Below are positions 22,807 to 37,425 of a stretch of 64,000 nucleotides of DNA, in pieces. Origin of the DNA: an uncultured Pantoea sp. (GTDB taxonomy: Bacteria; Pseudomonadota; Gammaproteobacteria; Enterobacterales; Enterobacteriaceae); NCBI GenBank assembly GCA_913778495.1, contig CAJYVD010000016.1:62001-126000 (forward strand), read 5' to 3'. The notes beneath the pieces are model-generated. The model worked only from the letters and a program-made list of their open reading frames with translations, was not told the DNA's origin and did not search any database. The position numbers and the translations under genes are program-made. How positions within the stretch are numbered: the first letter of the stretch is position 1; each line of letters begins with the position of its first letter.

Positions 22807-23433
22807 ATGAAAATTGCGCTCACTGCTCTTATGCTGGCTATCAGTACCAGCGCCTGGTCACACCCGCACAGCTTTATTGCGATGAAAACTGAATTTATCG
22901 GCGATAACAATCGCCTGACAGGAATGAAAATGGTGTGGACCATGGATGAAATCACCTCGGCAGACTTGTTATACGACGCAGGTCGCGCCAAACCCGGCGA
23001 GGTGGTGTGGAAAAAATTAGCCGCGCAGGTGATGGCCAATGTGCTGGGTCAGCACTATTTCAGCGAAGTTTGGCAGGGCCAGAACCGCATCAAATTTCTC
23101 AACCTACCCAAAGAGTACAATTTGTCGCGCAGCGGCAATAAAGCGGTACTGGAGTTCATTGTGCCCTTTGGCGAACCGCCCAGCTTGAGCCAGCGTACCT
23201 ATCGTATCCAGACCTTCGACCCCAGCTATTTTGTCGACATGTCTTATGAAAATGCGCAGGATCTCACCATGGATGAGACGGTCAAAGCCCACTGTCAAAT
23301 TGCATTACATACCCCCAAGCCCGCGGATTCGCTGAAGCAATATGCGCTGTCGCTGGATAAAGCGGACGCGCCGCCTGAGCAGATGGATCTTGGCCAGCAA
23401 TTTGCCCAAACGGTGACGCTGGCATGTCACTGA
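22807..23433 (+). CDS. Periplasmic DUF1007 protein, ZevA-like
   Basis: 208-residue exported protein: signal peptide MKIALTALMLAISTSAWSHP with cleavage near SAWS-HP, which leaves an N-terminal HPHSF segment able to bind metal. The family is DUF1007, whose Haemophilus member ZevA works with the membrane protein ZevB in zinc uptake. The C-terminus contains a single Cys in KAHCQIALHT and another at the end (LACH). The next gene starts inside its 3' end (ten-base overlap), so both are probably made together. The exact metal is not shown by sequence. Confidence 0.75.
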   Translation: MKIALTALMLAISTSAWSHPHSFIAMKTEFIGDNNRLTGMKMVWTMDEITSADLLYDAGRAKPGEVVWKKLAAQVMANVLGQHYFSEVWQGQNRIKFLNLPKEYNLSRSGNKAVLEFIVPFGEPPSLSQRTYRIQTFDPSYFVDMSYENAQDLTMDETVKAHCQIALHTPKPADSLKQYALSLDKADAPPEQMDLGQQFAQTVTLACH

Positions 23434-24410
23434 AGCGTCTTTCTCATCGTTCCGGACGCTTTTGGCCGTTATGGCTGATGGGCGGACTCATGTTGCTGGC
23501 GGGCTTCACGCTGTGGCAGTTTTGGCCGACCCTATTGCTCCAGAGCGTGATATGGCAAAAAACGCTGAATCGTGAGATGTCGCAGCTGCTGCAGCAGGTC
23601 GCCGCGCAGCCCGACCGCGCGGGGGCGACGCTGCTACTGTTTAGCCTGGCCTACGGGGTGCTGCATGCTTTAGGGCCCGGCCACGGTAAAATGGTGATCA
23701 CCACCTTCTTAGCCACTCACCCGGCAAAACTTAAAACCAGCGTTAAATTGACGCTGCTCGCGGCGCTGCTGCAGGGCGGCGTCGCGATTGCATTGGTTAC
23801 GGTGATGCTGGTGCTGCTGCAAACCTCGTCGCGGCAGCTGCATCTTGGCAGCTACTGGCTGGAGAAAGGCAGCTATTTGCTGGTTATCGCCTTGGGAATA
23901 GGGGTTAGCGGACGTGCGCTGCACGCGCTGCGCCAGCGGTGGCGGATGAAACCCGCATTAACGTTTCATACCTTTCGACCTGCGCATCATCATCATGACG
24001 CGCACTGCGGCTGCGGTCATGCGCATCTCCCCAGCGCCGCGCAAATGGAGCAGGCGGTAAGCGGCAAAACACAGGCGCTGGTGGTGCTCTCCATGGGGTT
24101 ACGTCCCTGTTCTGGCGCTATCATGATGCTTCTTTTTGCCCGCGTGATCGATGTCTACAGATGGGGCGTGGCGTCTGCCGTGGCGATGGCGATGGGCACC
24201 GCGCTGACCGTCACGCTGATCGGGTTGGTGGTGACAAGATGCCGGGCATTTGCTCAGCGCCTGAGCAGGGCGAACGCACCACCGCGCACAGTGCAGTGGG
24301 CCATGCCGCTGCTGGGCCTGCTGGGCGGCGTAATATTAATTATTACTGGCCTCTTGCTCTGGCAGAGCGCCGCCGAAATAGTCGGTGGGATTGCTAGGCC
24401 ATTTCTCTAA
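23424..24410 (+). CDS. NiCoT/RcnA-type metal transporter, ZevB-like
   Basis: 328-residue membrane protein of the RcnA-like nickel/cobalt transporter family. Six or seven hydrophobic segments; the metal-site helix HALGPGHGKMVITTFLATHP and the second motif LSMGLRPCSGAIMMLLFA are typical. A cytoplasmic-type His/Cys loop (HHHHDAHCGCGHAHL, about residue 190) lies between the halves. With the overlapping DUF1007 gene upstream it matches the zevAB arrangement, which argues for zinc, though Ni/Co transport cannot be excluded. Confidence 0.78.
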   Translation: MSLKRLSHRSGRFWPLWLMGGLMLLAGFTLWQFWPTLLLQSVIWQKTLNREMSQLLQQVAAQPDRAGATLLLFSLAYGVLHALGPGHGKMVITTFLATHPAKLKTSVKLTLLAALLQGGVAIALVTVMLVLLQTSSRQLHLGSYWLEKGSYLLVIALGIGVSGRALHALRQRWRMKPALTFHTFRPAHHHHDAHCGCGHAHLPSAAQMEQAVSGKTQALVVLSMGLRPCSGAIMMLLFARVIDVYRWGVASAVAMAMGTALTVTLIGLVVTRCRAFAQRLSRANAPPRTVQWAMPLLGLLGGVILIITGLLLWQSAAEIVGGIARPFL

Positions 24411-24584: not shown

Positions 24585-25598
24585 ATGCCTGAAACTTGGA
24601 CTACTAATGGCACTAAGGAAATCATTACGGAAACGCATTCAGCGCTGCCGTTAAAACGTATTTCCTGGAGTGCGGTATTTGCTGGCGTTATTGCGGCGCT
24701 TATCGTACATATTTTATTAGGACTGCTGGGCACGGCGATTGGCGCCACGACAATTGATCCTCAGCAGGAGCAAAACCCGCTGCAACACCTTGGCACGGGC
24801 GCATTGATCTGGAGCGGCGTCAGCATGCTGATTGCGATGGCTGTCGGCAGCTACGTTGCCGGACGCCTGGCGCAACGCGAAGGTGCGCTGCACGGTTTGC
24901 TGATGTTTGGCGTCAGCACGGTTATTACACTGTGGCTGGCAATTTCGTTAGCGAGCGGAATTATTGGCGGTGCGTTTAATATTCTGGGAAGCGGCATGAA
25001 CGCGCTGGGTAGCGGTATTTCCGCTGTGGCGCCGTCAGTGACAAATATGGCGAAGGAGAAGCTGCAGGAAAATAATATTAATCTGGATGATTTAAAAGGC
25101 GAATTGGAAACAACGCTGCGTCAAACCGGAAAACCTGAACTGCAGCCGGAAAACTTAAAGCAGGATGCAAATAACGAAGCAAATAACGCGGAAGATCAGG
25201 CGAAAAATACCGCACAGAATCCGCAAAATGCCGATACGGATATTGCCAACTGGATGAAGGGCGTAATTAACCGCCACAGTGATACGCTGCAAGCAGCCGA
25301 CCGCGATGCGTTGAAAAACATTATCAAAGCGCGAACCGGTAAAAGCGACGCTGAGGCAGAACAGATTGTGAATCAGACCGAACAGAGCTATCAAAAAGCG
25401 ATGCAGCAGTACCAGCAGTTGAAGCAGGAAGCGGAGCAGAAAGCCCGTGAAGCTGCCGAGAAAGCGGCAGCCGCCACGGCGAAAGCGAGCTGGTTTGCCT
25501 TCTTCATGCTGTTAATTGAAGCGGTGCTGGCGGCAGTGGTAGGACGGATTGGTCGTCGCACTCAGCCGCGCGAAGTGCTGACGCACGAACGCCACTAA
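24585..25598 (+). CDS. Unknown membrane protein with long charged coiled region
   Basis: Not recognised as a characterised protein. It has 337 residues: three hydrophobic segments near the N-terminus (about residues 26-53, 66-88 and 100-125), a glycine/serine-rich stretch (GSGMNALGSGISAVAPS), a long hydrophilic region rich in Asn, Gln, Lys and Ala (about 155-300) with an Ala/Glu/Lys coiled coil (KQEAEQKAREAAEKAAAATAKA), and a last membrane segment (about 305-325). GAGGAG precedes the ATG. Codon use in the middle is less GC-rich than in neighbours. It shares a terminator with the convergent suhB. A role in envelope or stress response is only a guess. Confidence 0.7.
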   Translation: MPETWTTNGTKEIITETHSALPLKRISWSAVFAGVIAALIVHILLGLLGTAIGATTIDPQQEQNPLQHLGTGALIWSGVSMLIAMAVGSYVAGRLAQREGALHGLLMFGVSTVITLWLAISLASGIIGGAFNILGSGMNALGSGISAVAPSVTNMAKEKLQENNINLDDLKGELETTLRQTGKPELQPENLKQDANNEANNAEDQAKNTAQNPQNADTDIANWMKGVINRHSDTLQAADRDALKNIIKARTGKSDAEAEQIVNQTEQSYQKAMQQYQQLKQEAEQKAREAAEKAAAATAKASWFAFFMLLIEAVLAAVVGRIGRRTQPREVLTHERH

Positions 25599-26577: not shown

Positions 26578-27321
26578 ATGCTGCAAAATATTCGAATCGT
26601 ACTGGTAGAAACCTCTCACACCGGGAATATGGGCTCGGTGGCGCGCGCCATGAAAACCATGGGGTTGAGCAACCTGTATCTGGTCAATCCGCTGGTAAAA
26701 CCGGACTCGCAGGCCATCTCGCTGGCAGCCGGGGCGAGCGACGTCATTGGTGACGCGCATATCGTTGACACGCTGGATGAAGCGATCGCAGGCTGCAGCC
26801 TGGTGGTGGGCACCAGCGCACGTTCGCGTTCGCTGCCGTGGCCCATGCTGGACGCGCGCGAATGCGGCGTTAAAAGCGTAGAGGAGGGCCAGCAGGCGCC
26901 GGTGGCGCTGGTGTTTGGCCGCGAACGCGTGGGGTTGACCAACGAAGAGCTGCAGAAGTGTCACTATCACGTGGCTATTCAGGCTAACCCGGAATACAGC
27001 TCGCTGAACCTGGCGATGGCGGTGCAAATTATCGCGTATGAAGTCCGCATGGCGTGGCTTGCCGCACAGGACCACTCTACGCCGCAGCCAGAGGTCGAAG
27101 CCACACCGTATCCGCTGGTGGACGACCTGGAGCGCTTCTACCAGCACATCGAGCAAATGATGCTCGACAGCGGGTTTATTCGAGAAGGCACGCCAAGCCA
27201 GGTCATGAGCAAGCTGCGTCGACTGTATACGCGTGCGCGTCCTGAGCGTGACGAGCTCAATATCCTGCGCGGCATGCTCTCCTCTTTCCAGAAACCCAAG
27301 AGCGACAAGCGGGATAGTTGA
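26578..27321 (+). CDS. trmJ: tRNA (cytidine/uridine-2'-O-)-methyltransferase TrmJ
   Basis: SPOUT-fold enzyme that 2'-O-methylates position 32 of tRNAs. It has 247 residues. SAM-binding knot motifs: [21 protein letters not shown] (motif 1 with catalytic Arg), [15 protein letters not shown] (motif 2) and [15 protein letters not shown] (motif 3). The C-terminal helical extension ends [26 protein letters not shown]. Its last eight bases belong to the first of three tandem IscR-like repeats that precede iscR. Confidence 0.96.
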
Positions 27322-27388
27322 GTAAAACACCAGGTTAAATAGTTGAGTATTTTACTTGGTTAAATAGTTGACCAAAATACTCGGGAAT
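27314..27388 (+). promoter_or_regulatory. Three contiguous 25-base IscR-type units upstream of iscR
   Basis: Three 25-base units lie head to tail with no spacer: 27314-27338, 27339-27363 and 27364-27388. Each starts ATAGTTGA. Against the published type 1 IscR consensus (ATASYYGACTRwww...) I count about 18, 20 and 22 matches of 25. The last unit runs into the iscR promoter region (TTGACC then TACTCGGGAATGTC), as in E. coli, where two such sites mediate repression by [2Fe-2S]-IscR. The first overlaps the end of trmJ. Confidence 0.72.
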
Positions 27389-27454
27389 GTCAGACTGGCC
27401 TCCATTCATCAGATAACCCGCCTGTCACGGCGGACGCTTACGAGGTTGTACGCT

Positions 27455-27952
27455 ATGAGACTGACATCCAAAGGACGTTATGCCGTTACCGCTATGCTGG
27501 ACGTTGCGCTGCATTCCCACGAGGGACCGGTGCCGCTCGCTGACATTTCTGAGCGGCAGGGCATTTCGCTCTCTTATCTGGAGCAGCTTTTCTCGCGCCT
27601 GCGTAAGCACGGTCTGGTCGCCAGCGTACGCGGCCCGGGCGGCGGTTATCTGTTAGGTAAAGAAGCCGCGGCTATCGCCGTGGGTGAAGTGATCACTGCC
27701 GTTGATGAATCGGTAGATGCCACCAAATGCCAGGGCAAAGAAGGCTGCCAGGGCGGCGAGCGTTGCCTGACGCACGTCCTGTGGCGTGACCTGAGCGAGC
27801 GCATCAGCGAGTTCCTGAACAACATCACCTTGGCTGAGCTGGTGAATAATCAGGAAATCCTTGACGTGGCCGACCGCCAGAACACCCTCGACAATCGTCG
27901 CTTCCAGCAGCATCGCGTGCAGGAAACTATCAACGTTAATCTGCGAGCCTGA
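27455..27952 (+). CDS. iscR: Fe-S cluster-sensing regulator IscR
   Basis: Rrf2-family regulator of 165 residues from ATG 27455 ([19 protein letters not shown]); 29 further upstream codons are open but lie in the promoter region. The winged helix is intact ([30 protein letters not shown]). The cluster ligands are all present in [16 protein letters not shown] (three Cys and the His). Thus both apo- and [2Fe-2S]-dependent control should be possible. It is followed by iscS, but the rest of the usual isc operon is missing. Confidence 0.96.
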
Positions 27953-28041
27953 TTCACATCCCCACGGCCTTTCCTGTTAACGCGGGCAAGGCCGAATCGT
28001 GCTATAAAGACGTATGATTTTTTATACGGAGCTTTAGCGCA

Positions 28042-29211
28042 ATGAAATTACCGATTTACCTGGATTATGCAGCCACTACCCCTGCAGATCCGCGTGTTGC
28101 CAGCAAGATGATGCAGTTCCTCACATCGGATGGCACCTTCGGTAACCCCGCTTCCCGCTCACACCGTTTTGGCTGGCAGGCTGAAGAAGCCGTTGATGTC
28201 GCACGCAATGACGTCGCGGCGCTGATCAACGCCGATCCGCGTGAAATCATTTTTACCTCCGGTGCCACTGAAGCCGACAACCTGGCGATTAAAGGTGCGG
28301 CGCACAGTCATCAGGCGCGCGGCAAACACATTATAACCAGCCAGACCGAACACAAAGCGGTACTGGACAGCTGCCTACAGCTGGAGCGCGAAGGCTTTAC
28401 GGTCACCTTTTTACAGCCCGGAGCGGATGGCATCGTCACGCCTGAGCAGTTGGACGCCGCGCTGCGTGATGACACGGTGCTGGTGTCGCTCATGCATGTA
28501 AATAATGAAACGGGTGTGGTCCAGGATATCGCCGCGCTGGGCGCACTGTGCCGTGCCCGTGACATCGTTTTCCACGTAGATGCGACCCAGAGCGTCGGCA
28601 AATTACCCATTGACGTTAGCCACTTGCCGGTAGATTTGCTCTCGTTCTCCGCCCATAAACTCTATGGCCCTAAAGGCATTGGCGCGCTGTGGGTACGCCG
28701 TAAACCCAAACTGGACATTGAGGCACAAATGCACGGCGGCGGGCACGAGCGCGGCATGCGTTCCGGTACGCTGCCTGTCCACCAGATTGTGGGCATGGGG
28801 GAGGCTTACCGCCTGGCGCGTGAAGCGATGGAGACGGACGTGTCGCACCTGAGCGCGCTGCGTTTACGGCTGTGGGACGGCATTCGCCAACTCCAGGGCG
28901 TGACGCTCAACGGCTCGCTGGCGCACGGTGCGCCGCATATTCTTAATGTGAGCTTTGCTGACGTCGACGGTGAATCGCTGATCATGGCGCTGAAAGATGT
29001 GGCGCTGTCGTCCGGTTCTGCCTGTACTTCTGCCACCCTTGAACCTTCTTATGTGCTGCGCGCAATGGGCGTTGAACAAACGCTGGCGTACAGTTCGCTG
29101 CGTTTTTCCCTTGGCCGCTTTACCACCGAAGAAGAGATCGATCGTGCCATTGAGGTGGTGACGCACGGCGTAACGCGCCTGCGCACCCTCACGCCAAACG
29201 CACCTCGCTAA
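28042..29211 (+). CDS. iscS: Cysteine desulfurase IscS, C-terminal tail missing
   Basis: PLP enzyme that takes sulfur from cysteine as a persulfide for Fe-S clusters, thionucleosides and thiamine. It has 389 residues versus 404 in E. coli. The PLP lysine is in [32 protein letters not shown] and the flexible persulfide loop [15 protein letters not shown] are intact, so catalysis should work. After RLRTLTP the protein ends in NAPR, where E. coli continues with a tail of roughly 18 residues that takes part in IscU binding. iscU does not follow; pepB starts 63 bases downstream. It may now serve mainly tRNA thiolation and thiamine synthesis. Confidence 0.95.
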
Positions 29212-29274
29212 TCATTTTCCGCCTTGCGCCGACACGGGCGCAGGCCGGACACCCTACGTAAATGGAGCTACGCG

Positions 29275-30561
29275 ATGACAACACAACCCATGATGATTAC
29301 GCTCAGTTCGCAAGCCGCGGATGCGCGTTGGGGAGAAAAGGCCCTGTTGAGCAGCACGGAACAGGGCATGACCATCCACCTTACCGGCAACGATGCGCTG
29401 ATCAGCATTCAGCGCGCCGGACGCAAGCTGGATGCACAAGGTATCCGCCACGTTGCGTTGAGCGGCGACGGCTGGGATATGGAAAAATGCTGGGCATTCT
29501 GGCAGGGCTACCGCAGCCCCAAAGCGCAGCGTCAGGTGGTATGGCCCGCGTTCAGTGAGCAGGATCAGCAGGAATTTGATCGCCGCTTGAAAATCGTTGA
29601 TTGGGTACGCGACACCATTAACCTGCCGGCGGAAGATCTGAGTCCGGAACAGCTGGCGCACAGCGCCATCGATCTGATCGCGGAAGTGGGCGGGGACGCG
29701 GTAAGCTACCGCATCACCAAAGGCGACGATCTGCGCGAGCAGGGCTACGCTGGTCTTCACACCGTTGGGCGCGGCTCGACGCGCGTGCCGGTGCTATTGG
29801 CGCTTGATTTTAATCCCAGCGGCGACGAGAACGCACCGGTTTATGCCTGTCTGGTCGGGAAAGGCATCACGTTCGATACCGGCGGTTACAGCCTGAAGCC
29901 GAGCGCTGGCATGGATTCCATGAAATCGGACATGGGCGGTGCGGCAACGGTCACGGGTGCGCTGGCGCTGGCCATCGCGCGCGGTCTCACTAAACGCGTT
30001 AAGCTGTTCCTGTGCTGCGCAGATAACATGGTGAGCGGCAATGCATTCCGCCTGGGCGATATTATTCGCTACCGCAATGGCAAATCCGTTGAGGTCATGA
30101 ACACCGACGCGGAAGGGCGGCTGGTGTTAGCCGACGGCCTTATTGATGCCAGCGAACAGCAGCCCGAACTGCTGATTGACGCGGCGACCCTGACCGGCGC
30201 GGCGAAAACCGCACTCGGCAACGACTATCACGCGCTGTTTACCTTTGACGATGTGCTGGCGGAATCGCTGCTCGGCAGTGCCACCAGTGAAAATGAAGCC
30301 TTCTGGCGGTTGCCGCTGGCAGAGTTCCACCGTCAGCATTTGCCGTCGAATTTTGCCGATCTCAATAACATTGCCAGCGCGGCGCACACCGCAGGCGCCA
30401 GCAGCGCGGCAGCGTTCCTCTCCTGGTTTGTCAGCAACTATCAGCAAGGCTGGTTGCACATTGACTGCTCGGCGACCTACCGCAAGAGCGCAGTGGATCA
30501 GTGGTCGGCGGGCGCAACCGGACTGGGCGTGCGTACCTTAGCGAATCTGCTGCTGAAATAA
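29275..30561 (+). CDS. pepB: Peptidase B, leucyl aminopeptidase family
   Basis: 428-residue M17 metallo-aminopeptidase of the cytoplasm. The metal and active-site motifs are [31 protein letters not shown] and [17 protein letters not shown]. The start is the ATG at 29275 ([23 protein letters not shown]) after GGAG; the frame is open 51 bases upstream. In E. coli pepB follows iscX at the end of the isc operon, and here it follows iscS directly. Confidence 0.96.
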
Positions 30562-31507: not shown

Positions 31508-32350
31508 CTACTTCTCAATGGGCAGATCGTCGCGGCTGCCCCATTCACCCCACGAGCCGTCATACAGGAACAGGTCGCGCTTGCCCAGCGCGGTAAGCGC
31601 CAATAGCACCACCGTTGCCGTCACGCCTGAACCACAGCTCGCCACGACTGGCCGATCGAACGCCAGGCCCGCTTTGGCAAACTGCTCGCGCAGTGCCGGT
31701 TCAGGTTTCAGGGTTCCGTTTTCCACTAGCGTATTCCACGGCACGTTAAGACTGTGTGGAATATGGCCGCGCAGCAGGCCCGGACGCGGCTCATCCACTT
31801 CGCCATTAAAGCGGTTGGCCGCCCGCGCATCGACGATCTGCGCGCTACCCTCGTGGCTGATCAGCAGCACATCGTTGAGACGTTTTACCTGGGTGCTGTC
31901 ATAAGTCGCCTCAAATTCGCCTTCGGGCAGCGTAACCGGGCCGCTTTCTACCGTCAGGCCCGCGGCTTTCCAGCCCTGCAGTCCTCCCGCCAGAATGGAC
32001 ACGTTGGCGCAGCCAAAGGCGCGCAGCATCCACCACGCGCGCGGAGCAGAAAACAGATTCCCTTCGTCGTACACCACCAGATGCTTGTCCTGACACACAC
32101 CCAGTTCGCGCATCGCCACCGCGAAGGTTTCTGCGCGCGGCATCATATGTGGGTAAGGGCTGGTGTGATCGGATAACGCGTCAATATTAAAGAAAGCGGC
32201 GCCTGGCAAGTGCGCGGCCAGATATTCCGCATTCACATCGCGCACCGCTTCCTGGCCTGGCGGCACCATGCGGGCATCCAACACCTGCAGTGTGCCCTCG
32301 TTGTAATGCTCGTTTACCCAATCGGCAGAGACAAATAGCGGAGCTGACAT
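31508..32350 (-). CDS. sseA: 3-mercaptopyruvate sulfurtransferase
   Basis: 280-residue tandem-rhodanese enzyme that transfers sulfur from 3-mercaptopyruvate to thiols or cyanide. The N-terminal rhodanese domain is inactive (LVVYDEGNLFSAPRAWWMLRAFG), and the C-terminal one carries the active-site loop CGSGVTA, the specific mercaptopyruvate signature (thiosulfate enzymes have CRKGVT). The start is MSAPLFVSADWVNEHY, and the N-terminal PRAETFA and GHIPHSLNVPW segments agree with the family. Confidence 0.95.
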   Translation of the reverse strand: MSAPLFVSADWVNEHYNEGTLQVLDARMVPPGQEAVRDVNAEYLAAHLPGAAFFNIDALSDHTSPYPHMMPRAETFAVAMRELGVCQDKHLVVYDEGNLFSAPRAWWMLRAFGCANVSILAGGLQGWKAAGLTVESGPVTLPEGEFEATYDSTQVKRLNDVLLISHEGSAQIVDARAANRFNGEVDEPRPGLLRGHIPHSLNVPWNTLVENGTLKPEPALREQFAKAGLAFDRPVVASCGSGVTATVVLLALTALGKRDLFLYDGSWGEWGSRDDLPIEK

Positions 32351-32650
32351 CGCAACAACCTCGTTGTAATCAGAGAAGGCGTCCAGTGTCAGCGAATGGC
32401 CCGGCTATCTCAAGGGGAGCGTGATAAAAGTGCGCGGCGTGAAAGACATGCATCAGCGACGTAACCGCACCAGGCAGCAGGTCAGGCTATCGTGAACCGC
32501 GGCTATGGGCGGTCAGACGCGATAAAAATCACTTATTTTCAATAATTCCTGCATTCGCTAATAGGCAACGCGCAACGATATCCCTATAATCGGCGCGTTT
32601 TCTTACCGGGAGCGTTCCCGGTTTCTTCAGGATGCTAAATAGAGGTTAAC
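32351..32650 (+). promoter_or_regulatory. Gene-free stretch between sseA and ndk, with the ndk promoter
   Basis: No coding frame of interest is seen. A perfect TATAAT at 32585-32590 is the likely -10 box of ndk, 61 bases before its ATG. In E. coli this junction holds yfhM (alpha-2-macroglobulin) and pbpC (penicillin-binding protein 1C); both are absent here and I see no remnant of either. Confidence 0.6.
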
Positions 32651-33082
32651 ATGGCAATCGAACGTACTTTCTCCATCATCAAACCTAATGCCGTTGCTAA
32701 GAACGTCATCGGTGCTATCTACAACCGTTTCGAAAGCGCAGGCTTCAAAATCGTTGGCGCGAAAATGCTGCACCTGACCAAAGAGCAGGCTGAAGGCTTC
32801 TACGCAGAACACAAAGGCCGTCCTTTCTTCGACGGTCTGGTTGAGTTCATGACTTCTGGTCCCGTTGTGGTGTCTGTTCTGGAAGGCGAAAACGCCGTTC
32901 AGCGTCACCGTGATCTGATGGGTGCCACCAACCCAGACAACGCGCTGGCCGGTACGCTGCGTGCCGATTACGCAGACAGCTTCACCGAGAACGCCACTCA
33001 CGGTTCTGACTCTGCTGAGTCTGCAGCACGCGAAATCGCGTACTTCTTCGCAGAAAACGAAGTCTGCCCGCGCACTCGCTAA
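32651..33082 (+). CDS. ndk: Nucleoside diphosphate kinase
   Basis: 143-residue enzyme that equilibrates nucleoside di- and triphosphates through a phosphohistidine. The signature [20 protein letters not shown] contains the active-site histidine (H117), and the N-terminus [18 protein letters not shown] is standard. AGAGG precedes the ATG. Codon use is strongly biased towards preferred codons, as expected for a highly expressed gene. It stands alone between sseA and rlmN. Confidence 0.98.
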
Positions 33083-33266: not shown

Positions 33267-34436
33267 ATGTCCGAACAGATTGTGACGCCATCGTCCGCTT
33301 CCCCCGTGGTTGTTTCCCCCAAAAGTGAAAAAATTAACCTGCTGGATTTAAACCGTCAGCAGATGCGCGAGTTCTTCGTGGAGATGGGCGAAAAACCGTT
33401 CCGCGCCGATCAGGTCATGAAGTGGATGTATCACTACTGCTGCGATGATTTCGAGCAGATGACCGATATCAACAAAGTGCTGCGCGGCAAATTGATGCAG
33501 CGAGCGGAGATCCGTGCGCCGGAAGTGGCGGAAGAGATGCGATCCAGCGATGGCACCATCAAGTGGGCGATTCGCGTCGGCGATCAACTGGTCGAAACCG
33601 TGTATATCCCGGAAGCCGACCGCGCCACACTGTGTGTGTCCTCGCAGGTTGGCTGCGCGCTGGAGTGTAAATTCTGTTCGACCGCGCAGCAGGGCTTCAA
33701 CCGCAACCTGCGCGTATCAGAAATCATCGGCCAGGTATGGCGCGCGGCAAAAATCATCGGCGCAGCCAAAGTCACGGGCCAGCGTCCCATCACCAATGTG
33801 GTGATGATGGGTATGGGCGAGCCGTTGCTGAACCTCAACAATGTGGTGCCGGCGATGGACATCATGCTGGACGATTTCGGGTTTGGGTTATCAAAACGTC
33901 GCGTTACGCTGTCAACCTCAGGCGTGGTCCCCGCGCTGGATAAGCTGGGTGATATGATTGACGTCGCGTTGGCCATTTCGCTGCATGCACCGAACGACAC
34001 CATCCGCGATGAAATTGTGCCGATCAACAAAAAGTACAACATCGAGGCGTTCCTCGGCGCGGTGAAGCGTTATATCGGCAAGTCCAACGCCAATCAGGGG
34101 CGCGTGACCATCGAGTACGTGATGCTGGACCACGTCAATGACAGCACCGATAACGCGCATGAGTTGGCTGCGCTGCTGAAAGATACGCCGTGCAAAATCA
34201 ACCTGATTCCGTGGAACCCCTTCCCGGGCGCACCCTATGGCCGCAGCTCAAACAGCCGCATCGATCGTTTTTCTAAAGTGCTGATGGATTACGGTTTTAC
34301 CACTATCGTGCGTAAAACCCGCGGTGACGACATTGATGCTGCCTGCGGTCAACTGGCCGGGGACGTGATCGATCGTACCAAGCGCACGCTGCGCAAAAAA
34401 ATGGCAGGTGAAACGATCTCTGTGAAGGCGCTCTGA
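33267..34436 (+). CDS. rlmN: Dual-specificity RNA methyltransferase RlmN
   Basis: Radical SAM enzyme that makes 2-methyladenosine at 23S rRNA A2503 and tRNA A37. It has 389 residues. The [4Fe-4S] motif CALECKFC and the SAM-binding GMGEPLLN are present, and two catalytic cysteines are expected near residue 120 region and at [13 protein letters not shown]. The N-terminal [14 protein letters not shown] domain binds RNA. The start [12 protein letters not shown] has a slightly longer, Ser/Pro-rich N-terminus than E. coli. It depends on an Fe-S cluster that the reduced isc locus cannot assemble alone. Confidence 0.96.
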
Positions 34437-36303: not shown

Positions 36304-37425
36304 ATGCATAACGAAGCACCCATTATCCGTCGCAAATCAACGCGAATTTACGTCGGCAAGGTGCCAGTCGGCGATGGTGCGCCCATTGCCGTTCAGTCAA
36401 TGACCAACACCCGCACCACGGATGTTGAAGCCACAGTGAATCAAATCCGCGCGCTGGAGCGCGTGGGCGTTGATATCGTGCGCGTTTCGGTGCCCACGAT
36501 GGATGCAGCTGAGGCGTTCAAACTGATTAAACAACAGGTCAATGTGCCGCTGGTGGCGGATATTCACTTTGATTACCGTATCGCGCTTAAAGTGGCGGAA
36601 TACGGCGTTGATTGTCTGCGCATCAACCCCGGCAATATCGGCAACAACGAACGCATCCGTCAAGTGGTTGACTGCGCACGCGATCACAACATTCCGATTC
36701 GCATTGGCGTTAACGCCGGTTCGCTGGAAAAAGATCTGCAAGAAAAGTACGGCGAGCCTACGCCGCAGGCGCTGCTGGAATCGGCTATGCGCCATGTTGA
36801 TCATCTCGATCGTCTGAACTTCGATCAATTTAAAGTCAGCGTAAAAGCCTCCGATGTGTTTCTGGCGGTGGAGTCCTATCGACTGCTGGCCAAAGCCATC
36901 GATCAGCCGCTGCATCTCGGTATTACCGAAGCGGGCGGCGCACGAGCGGGCGCGGTGAAGTCGGCTATCGGGTTGGGTCTGTTGCTCGCCGAAGGCATTG
37001 GCGACACGCTGCGTATCTCGCTGGCCGCCGATCCGGTTGAAGAAGTCAAAGTGGGTTATGACATCCTCAAGTCACTGCGTATTCGGTCACGCGGCATTAA
37101 CTTCATCGCGTGCCCAACCTGCTCGCGTCAGGAGTTTGACGTGATCGGTACAGTTAACGCGCTTGAAGAGCGGCTGGAAGACATCATTACGCCAATGGAC
37201 GTCTCCATCATCGGCTGTGTGGTAAACGGGCCGGGCGAAGCGACGGTGTCGACGCTTGGCGTCACCGGCGGCAACAAGAAAAGCGGCTTCTACGAAGATG
37301 GCGTGCGTCAGCGCGATCGTCTCGATAACAATGACATGATTGACCAGCTGGAAGCGCGTATTCGTGCCAAGGCCGCCATGCTGGACGAGAGCCGCCGCAT
37401 CAGCGTGCAGCAGCTGGAAAAATAA
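36304..37425 (+). CDS. ispG: 4-hydroxy-3-methylbut-2-en-1-yl diphosphate synthase
   Basis: [4Fe-4S] enzyme of the MEP isoprenoid pathway that opens the cyclodiphosphate MEcPP to HMBPP. It has 373 residues from ATG 36304 ([20 protein letters not shown]) after GGAGAG. The TIM-barrel part carries [16 protein letters not shown] and LGITEAGG; the cluster cysteines lie in [11 protein letters not shown] and GCVVNGPGE. It is an essential Fe-S client, which makes the loss of iscU and hscBA notable. Confidence 0.97.

Follow-up and report, generated by a model that had tools for sequence, protein, structure and literature searches.

The isc locus of the window is reduced to iscR and iscS

Enterobacteria are the textbook case in which ISC is the housekeeping system of iron-sulfur (Fe-S) cluster assembly and SUF the stress system. 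Here we describe an isc locus of an uncultured Pantoea that has been reduced to iscR and iscS. It lies in a 64-kb stretch of DNA, positions 62001-126000 of contig C16 in a 41-contig genome bin, which was analysed as a whole and is called the window. In E. coli, iscU, iscA, hscB, hscA, fdx and iscX occupy the space between iscS and pepB, and in the window this space is a junction of 63 bases. The original prediction, made from this DNA alone, had noted the gap; beyond what it could observe, the loss of ISC is genus-wide in Pantoea and recurrent in the family, and the frataxin CyaY has gone as well. The features are listed below by position in the window, with profile scores and cut-offs in brackets.

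26578-27321, + strand: trmJ, outer neighbour, tRNA Cm32/Um32 methyltransferase (NF011694, 487 bits; cut-off 280)
27364-27388, + strand: candidate IscR type-1 site in the iscR promoter, ATAGTTGACCAAAATACTCGGGAAT (3 mismatches to the consensus)
27455-27952, + strand: iscR, [2Fe-2S] regulator of Fe-S biogenesis (NF008110, 331.7 bits; cut-off 275)
28042-29211, + strand: iscS, cysteine desulfurase of 389 residues whose IscU-docking tail is missing (NF010611, 660.9; cut-off 548)
29212-29274, no strand: junction of 63 bases in the place of iscU-iscA-hscB-hscA-fdx-iscX (no remnant found)
29275-30561, + strand: pepB, outer neighbour, with its ATG at 29275 (NF003450, 757.6 bits; cut-off 437)
33267-34436, + strand: rlmN, radical-SAM Fe-S client still present (NF008396, 790 bits; cut-off 633)
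36322-37425, + strand: ispG, essential 4Fe-4S client still present (TIGR00612, 414.6 bits; cut-off 280.25)

The order iscR-iscS-pepB, with 63 bases before pepB, was reproduced in all its predicted coordinates. A search of this gap for isc remnants returned none at E <= 0.01, in agreement with the claim that no scaffold or chaperone gene has left a trace, and E. coli IscU, IscA, HscB, HscA, Fdx and IscX gave no tblastn matches in the window (E <= 1e-4). NCBIfam profiles confirmed TrmJ, IscR, an IscS-type desulfurase, PepB, SseB, SseA and RlmN. This bears out the intact outer neighbours (TrmJ, PepB, SseB and SseA) and, with TIGR00612 for IspG, the remaining Fe-S clients rlmN and ispG. All cluster ligands ascribed to IscR are kept (C92, C98, C104 and H107). 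The description of iscS as intact stood in part: the catalytic residues are in place, and the conserved last 19 residues and residues of the partner surfaces are not.

Three further observations concern other parts of the window. At 32350-32651, sseA is directly followed by ndk; yfhM and pbpC, which come after sseA in E. coli, are absent there, with no search made elsewhere. At 22807-24410, a DUF1007 protein is followed by a NicO nickel/cobalt permease with a frame overlap of 10 bases. The interval 24585-25598 encodes a 337-residue protein that is membrane-like by eye and has no match in Pfam (1e-4) or NCBIfam (1e-15).

Soundness of the junction and Fe-S gene content of the bin

The junction lies within contig C16, away from the contig ends, and the same gene order was found in five other Pantoea assemblies (L001-L005), one of which is a complete chromosome (L003). 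Assembly error is therefore unlikely, and the claim of a real deletion is further supported by the absence of IscU from the genus (see below). The best matches of the window IscS were Pantoea proteins (86% to a Pantoea metagenome-assembled genome, 81% to P. anthophila and 79% to P. agglomerans), and in a tree of TrmJ and PepB the window grouped with that Pantoea genome and Tatumella (99/95), next to other Pantoea.

A second iscS is present in the bin, on contig C18 (locus L116, 2460-7339), in the order trmJ-iscR-iscS-pepB-sseB and also without the missing isc genes. Its TrmJ and PepB are near-identical to those of another genome (G146), and we read the locus as contamination by a second Pantoea and not as a relocated operon. 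Since both loci lack the isc genes, the conclusion of gene loss is independent of the mixture in the bin. An intact isc operon elsewhere, with its own iscS, had been named as the finding that would overturn the deletion. Such relocation was rejected, as the second iscS sits in an equally reduced locus and no isc operon was found elsewhere in the bin.

Bin-wide searches were then evaluated for Fe-S and thiolation genes. The IscU-type scaffold domain PF01592 had no match in the bin, with a positive E. coli control, so that a NifU/NIF scaffold is absent as well. HscB, Fdx, IscX and CyaY were not found in the bin, and in the place of HscA there was only an Hsp70 under the HscA cut-off, read as DnaK (44%). 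IscA had no match in the window, with no bin-wide search aimed at it; an ErpA query of the bin returned two A-type proteins, one taken to be ErpA and the other the SufA of the suf locus. A complete sufABCDSE lies in a row (L117, 2893-8466), with all six genes over their NCBIfam cut-offs, and ErpA, NfuA and CsdE are present. Another cluster supplier such as Suf had been predicted; as far as sequence can tell, the whole suf operon without an isc scaffold or chaperone agrees with this. The bin also encodes the thiolation partners TusA (80%), ThiI (82%) and MnmA (86%), and with the TusA site kept on IscS it has the components of a tRNA thiolation hub.

ISC is absent throughout Pantoea and repeatedly in the family

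True IscU was found in none of 61 Pantoea genomes, and neither was CyaY. Six IscU-domain hits in the genus lie in frames of 280-319 residues and are read as NifU; the genomes with such a NifU-length protein and no short IscU are G208, G209, G227, G228, G237 and G245. For the family, 198 genomes were drawn evenly, one of which has an IscS identical to that of E. coli. IscU was present in 129 and absent in 69, the latter including one genome with NifU only (G141). A SufB match was found in 150 (148 over the cut-off), CyaY in 119 and HscA over its cut-off in 107. IscU and SufB occurred together in 82 genomes, IscU alone in 47 and SufB alone in 68 (among them G172, with a weak SufB fragment, and G102, with stops in the SufB frame); the one genome with neither is of 0.2 Mb. 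Of the 69 IscU-less genomes, 61 keep IscS (E <= 1e-60), and SufB was matched in every one of these 61. Twenty-two IscU-less genomes are of at least 3 Mb, two of these (G054 and G107) being less than 90% complete.

In E. coli, cyaY sits apart from isc on the chromosome. CyaY was found in 0 of 69 IscU-less genomes versus 119 of 129 IscU-bearing ones (Fisher p = 6e-43, relatedness ignored). The ten IscU-bearing genomes without CyaY are nine of at most 1 Mb and G022. HscA over its cut-off was likewise found in none of the 69; it was missing in 22 of the 129, namely 20 of at most 1 Mb, one of 1.4 Mb and one that is 49% complete (G028). G022, a genome of 5.4 Mb with IscU and HscA and without a CyaY match, is the sole exception above 1 Mb to the pairing of CyaY with IscU.

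IscS loci were obtained from 30 of the 69 IscU-less genomes (our own, G000, included), and loci were inspected for 21 of the 22 IscU-less genomes of at least 3 Mb (20 fetched and our own; G113 was left out). In 20 of these 21, pepB follows iscS at 29 to 789 bases, and in the other (L104, from G069) no isc or pepB gene adjoins iscS. The iscS-pepB gaps of Erwinia-type and Lonsdalea loci measure 133 to 792 bases. An iscX-like remnant was detected in eight of 34 gaps searched and remnants of other isc genes in none (E <= 0.01). The remnant in L111 (8874-8770), beside pepB, covers 61 residues at 44% (E 3.5e-9). Those in L097, L100, L102, L106 and L107, also beside pepB, cover 23-25 residues close to the end of iscX (E 1e-4 to 8e-4), and those in L017 and L105 are weaker (E 0.005 and 0.007). 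The remnants thus support loss from a full operon. In the junction comparison across related genera that had been suggested as a check, iscS-pepB adjacency therefore recurs with gaps of varying size, some of which hold iscX-like remnants.

To count changes of state, we used the tree of TrmJ and PepB, which has 66 rows (29 IscU-less and 37 IscU-bearing) after 19 of 85 rows (14 IscU-less and 5 IscU-bearing) were left out because their trmJ or pepB match was unusable. The minimum is six changes of state (bootstrap range 6-7), four of them forced by well-supported branches; if ISC was never regained, nine losses are needed, or seven after weak forks are collapsed. Six changes being fewer than nine losses, and Tatumella being nested inside the Pantoea group (99/95), an alternative is that ancestors lost ISC in one or a few events and that Tatumella, Mixta and some Erwinia got it back by transfer. 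However, when IscU, IscA, HscA and Fdx are taken together, the six sampled Erwiniaceae-type rows that keep ISC fall in a single clade (100/99) whose sister is the E. coli group. This matches vertical descent and thus favours repeated loss over regain. The variation of junction length from 29 to 792 bases (L123, with a weak pepB match, was left out) and the iscX-like remnants retained in eight of 34 gaps also argue against regain. We regard regain, also by transfer within Erwiniaceae, as improbable.

IscS decays at the sites of its ISC partners

The window IscS has 389 residues compared with 404 in E. coli, and its alignment to the E. coli protein ends at residue 385. The conserved final 19 residues are gone, with four unrelated residues in their place; the docking tail 376-404 is therefore not preserved, and binding of IscU would be expected to be lost. 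The protein passes NF010611 and scores just under the cut-off of TIGR02006 (640.9 and 643.2 bits). It keeps C328, K206, H104 and the TusA site, retains R116 and R220, and carries the changes F89S, K101Q, R112L, R223K, R225D, E309D, D346Q and E347T.

Several of these residues have been assigned to partners in E. coli. The docking surface for IscU comprises alpha-8 (309-316), E347 and the C-terminal helix of IscS, and an IscS without 376-404 no longer binds IscU (PMC2854127). The same study places the TusA contacts at W45, E49, D52, R55 and R237, with R220 at the edge. In its mutants, binding of CyaY or IscX is altered by changes of R116, R220, R223, R225/E227, G234, R237/M239, A327 and R340, and F89 is weakly tied to ThiI. 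Ferredoxin binding is abolished by changes of R220, R223 and R225 and weakened by those of R112 and R116 (PMC3750173). Acyl carrier protein (ACP) contacts IscS via R112 and R116 and aids ISC but not SUF (PMC13343975).

An IscS alignment of 85 rows was examined, with 43 IscU-less rows and 42 IscU-bearing controls (31 from Enterobacterales and kin, 11 from other gammaproteobacteria). It comprises 44 of 80 matched loci (36 more distant ones were unused), the window, the second locus of the bin (L116), E. coli (L081) and 38 fetched loci (29 IscU-less and 9 IscU-bearing). All 42 controls have 404 residues with the conserved tail. In contrast, the tail is altered in all 43 IscU-less proteins, which have 381-406 residues; two of them are of 404 residues, and W401 is kept in one. 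The controls are invariant at 209 sites; 101 of these are also unchanged in every IscU-less row, and 108 vary in at least one. The residues of this set most often replaced within 1-375 are R112 (40 of 43), K101 (36), F89 (28) and E285 (26), followed by D346 (24), E309 (23), K95 (21) and R225 (19); R223 changes in 16 rows and E347 in 14. At the TusA site, W45, E49 and R55 never change, D52 changes once, R220 twice and R237 three times, and the active-site residues C328, K206 and H104 are unchanged in all 43. Residues that thiolation and ISC partners have in common are nearly always kept (R220, R237, M239 and A327; R340 in 37 of 43), except for R116, which is kept in only 20. R223 and R225, by comparison, matter mainly for ISC partners.

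Ten control-invariant ISC sites were chosen from the papers (R112, R223, R225, 309-313, 315 and 347); A327, G234, R340 and other shared, mostly held sites were omitted from this list and included in a test of the whole footprint. The ten changed more than the other 188 control-invariant sites (p = 2e-5), 66 other polar or charged sites (p = 3e-4) or the TusA sites (p = 0.006), and the entire published ISC footprint, shared sites included, had a mean change of 9.7 versus 2.5 (p = 1e-5); relatedness among the rows makes these p-values too small. On the tree, R112 was substituted at least 13 times among IscU-less rows and never among controls, and none of the 29 IscU-less rows there retains it. 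The IscU-less proteins nearest to E. coli IscS in residues 1-375 (L111, 89%; L112, 87%; L103, 86%; L105, 85%) all have R112 replaced, and L111 still has F89, R223, R225, E309 and E347. In L118 (85%), the fifth closest, the tail is gone but R112, K101 and R116 remain. R112 thus goes early often, but not always.

Probable regulation by IscR, and Fur boxes at suf

The candidate type-1 site before iscR was the sole match to the consensus in the window, and none occurred in 100 shuffles. IscR, with its ligands retained, probably still uses its own [2Fe-2S] site to gauge cluster supply and controls iscRS.

We also compared Fur boxes upstream of sufA in 21 IscU-less and 21 IscU-bearing genomes. The best match within 250 bases was weaker in the IscU-less genomes (p = 1e-4; within 120 bases, p = 7e-4; relatedness ignored in both), and the difference vanished at 450 bases (p = 0.43), because a distal box (-370 to -440) scores at least 15/19 in 16 of 21 IscU-less genomes and in 7 of 21 IscU-bearing ones. 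The idea of a Fur switch, in which a housekeeping Suf would have been freed from Fur, was dropped in view of the 450-base comparison, and the proximal box (-60 to -75) is kept as a lead. In our own bin, a near-consensus Fur box with one mismatch lies about 370 bases before sufA (L117, 2522-2540), directly preceding a divergent frame of 134 residues without an NCBIfam match at 1e-20. E. coli Fur is reported to need IscU for its cluster (PMC11001641), so that a Fur-box-like site in an IscU-less bin offers a natural test of Fur activation without IscU.

A lineage that probably relies on Suf

We consider it highly probable from these sequences that the lineage is SUF-only, with Suf assembling all clusters, IscS serving tRNA and cofactor thiolation, and the surfaces of IscS for ISC partners having decayed. 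The six downstream isc genes and cyaY would have disappeared, and the making and delivery of clusters would have passed to SufABCDSE, helped by ErpA and NfuA as carriers. That Suf makes all of them is suggested by the bin, because it holds no ISC and no scaffold with a NifU_N domain. IscS would have been retained for its part as sulfur donor in the formation of 2-thiouridine (via TusA-MnmA) and 4-thiouridine (via ThiI) in tRNA, and other thio-cofactors probably also obtain sulfur from it. Released from its ISC partners, IscS would have been free to lose the docking tail, the arginine patch for ferredoxin and CyaY and the ACP contact R112, with its TusA site and active site held.

Several points weigh against this reading. 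The bin is 93.29% complete with 2.43% contamination and apparently holds parts of two Pantoea species; since absence from such a draft is weak evidence, it is the 61 genomes of the genus and 198 of the family that carry the argument. The IscA status of the bin is derived from the ErpA query and its two A-type proteins, without a dedicated search. The relatedness of the IscS rows leaves only four well-supported independent pairs, all in the same direction and too few for significance in a sign test. Some ISC sites hold (changes in 43 rows: A327 0, E311 1, L313 1, G310 2 and G234 3), and three rows, all outside the tree, retain R112 (L107, L118 and L119). The loss of F89, a ThiI site in the mutants of 2010, from 28 of 43 rows is at odds with a strict thiolation role. 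Finally, IscU-less rows show greater divergence over the whole of IscS (E. coli distance ratio 0.85 versus 0.36), and general relaxation therefore accounts for part of the decay.

This last point raises the question of whether the changes reflect nothing but a general speed-up of a less constrained protein. The 108 of 209 control-invariant sites that vary in at least one row fit such a speed-up, as do the strongly changed E285, D346, K95 and K101, which are not binding sites in the published mutant tables, as far as these were accessible. The published ISC sites nevertheless stand far above the rest, both as ten sites and as a whole footprint, and the ten exceed other charged or polar sites; the TusA site, likewise surface-exposed, is unchanged. 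A speed-up as the whole explanation thus appears unlikely, and interface-specific decay is preferred.

More speculatively, ISC loss may have led to repeated and partly adaptive remodelling of IscS, with R112, the ACP and ferredoxin contact, among the first residues lost. An IscS that binds ACP without IscU would waste desulfurase or ACP, which could select for a thiolation-dedicated enzyme. L107, L118 and L119 speak against this idea in keeping R112, L118 even though its tail is lost, and we hold it as a tentative and rather doubtful addition to the SUF-only reading.

IscS might also still feed Fe-S assembly by passing persulfide to Suf, CsdE or another acceptor. This would suit the retention of iscS beside SufB in 61 of 69 IscU-less genomes, and in Mycobacterium tuberculosis a lone iscS and a complete SUF are both credited with Fe-S enzyme activities (PMC10848736). 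However, the IscU, Fdx, CyaY and ACP surfaces decay with the TusA site held, SufS and SufE are present, and tRNA thiolation alone suffices to explain why iscS was retained; we therefore give this role of IscS little credence. That isc genes exist and were dropped by misassembly or from an incomplete bin can practically be dismissed: the bin is a mixed draft, but the junction is mid-contig, both loci of the bin and five Pantoea assemblies including a complete chromosome are alike, and true IscU is missing from all 61 genomes of the genus.

Significance and comparison with known systems

About one-third of the sampled family genomes (69 of 198), 22 of them of at least 3 Mb, lack ISC. In these lineages nature has run a deletion experiment several times over, which helps to separate IscS residues for ISC partners (the tail, R112, R223, R225 and perhaps K101 and F89) from those for thiolation. 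They make the role of CyaY, absent from all 69, and the acquisition of the Fur cofactor without IscU testable. The R112 pattern fits the recent report of an ACP-IscS contact via R112 and R116 that aids ISC and not SUF (PMC13343975).

The locus resembles the E. coli isc operon in its chromosomal place, the iscR and iscS orthologues, the IscR ligands, the type-1 site candidate and the outer neighbours trmJ, pepB, sseB and sseA. It differs in that all genes from iscU to iscX are absent, the IscS tail and ISC-partner residues have decayed, and no cyaY was found in the bin. That ISC and SUF tend to exclude one another was reportedly described by Garcia et al. in 2022. Their mutual exclusion is stated for Gammaproteobacteria (PMC10631705), and the loss of one system here follows this known trend, but the iscRS remnant and the decay of IscS surfaces are not described in the accessible part of that account. 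E. coli and related enterobacteria are presented as having both systems (PMC11559095).

A lone iscS beside SUF has precedents. In M. tuberculosis, ISC is likewise cut to iscS next to a complete SUF; the lineage is unrelated, no other isc genes surround its iscS, and decay of partner surfaces is not treated in the accessible text (PMC10848736). The mealybug symbiont Moranella endobia similarly has a complete suf and iscS without its own iscU or iscA. There, however, the state belongs to the genome reduction of a nested symbiosis, in which the partner, Tremblaya, has iscU (PMC3620526); here it is seen in genomes of at least 3 Mb. Among the literature matches listed, which covered few subscription journals, none dealt with ISC loss in Pantoea or Erwinia or with decay of IscS partner sites. 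The single iscS alongside SUF is already known. For recurrent loss accompanied by surface decay, the searchable papers yielded no account, which at this coverage is weak evidence of novelty. Frataxin is said to co-occur with ISC genes, an observation attributed to Huynen et al. in 2001. CyaY tracks ISC in the same manner in our sample, and here the two have been lost together within a single bacterial family.

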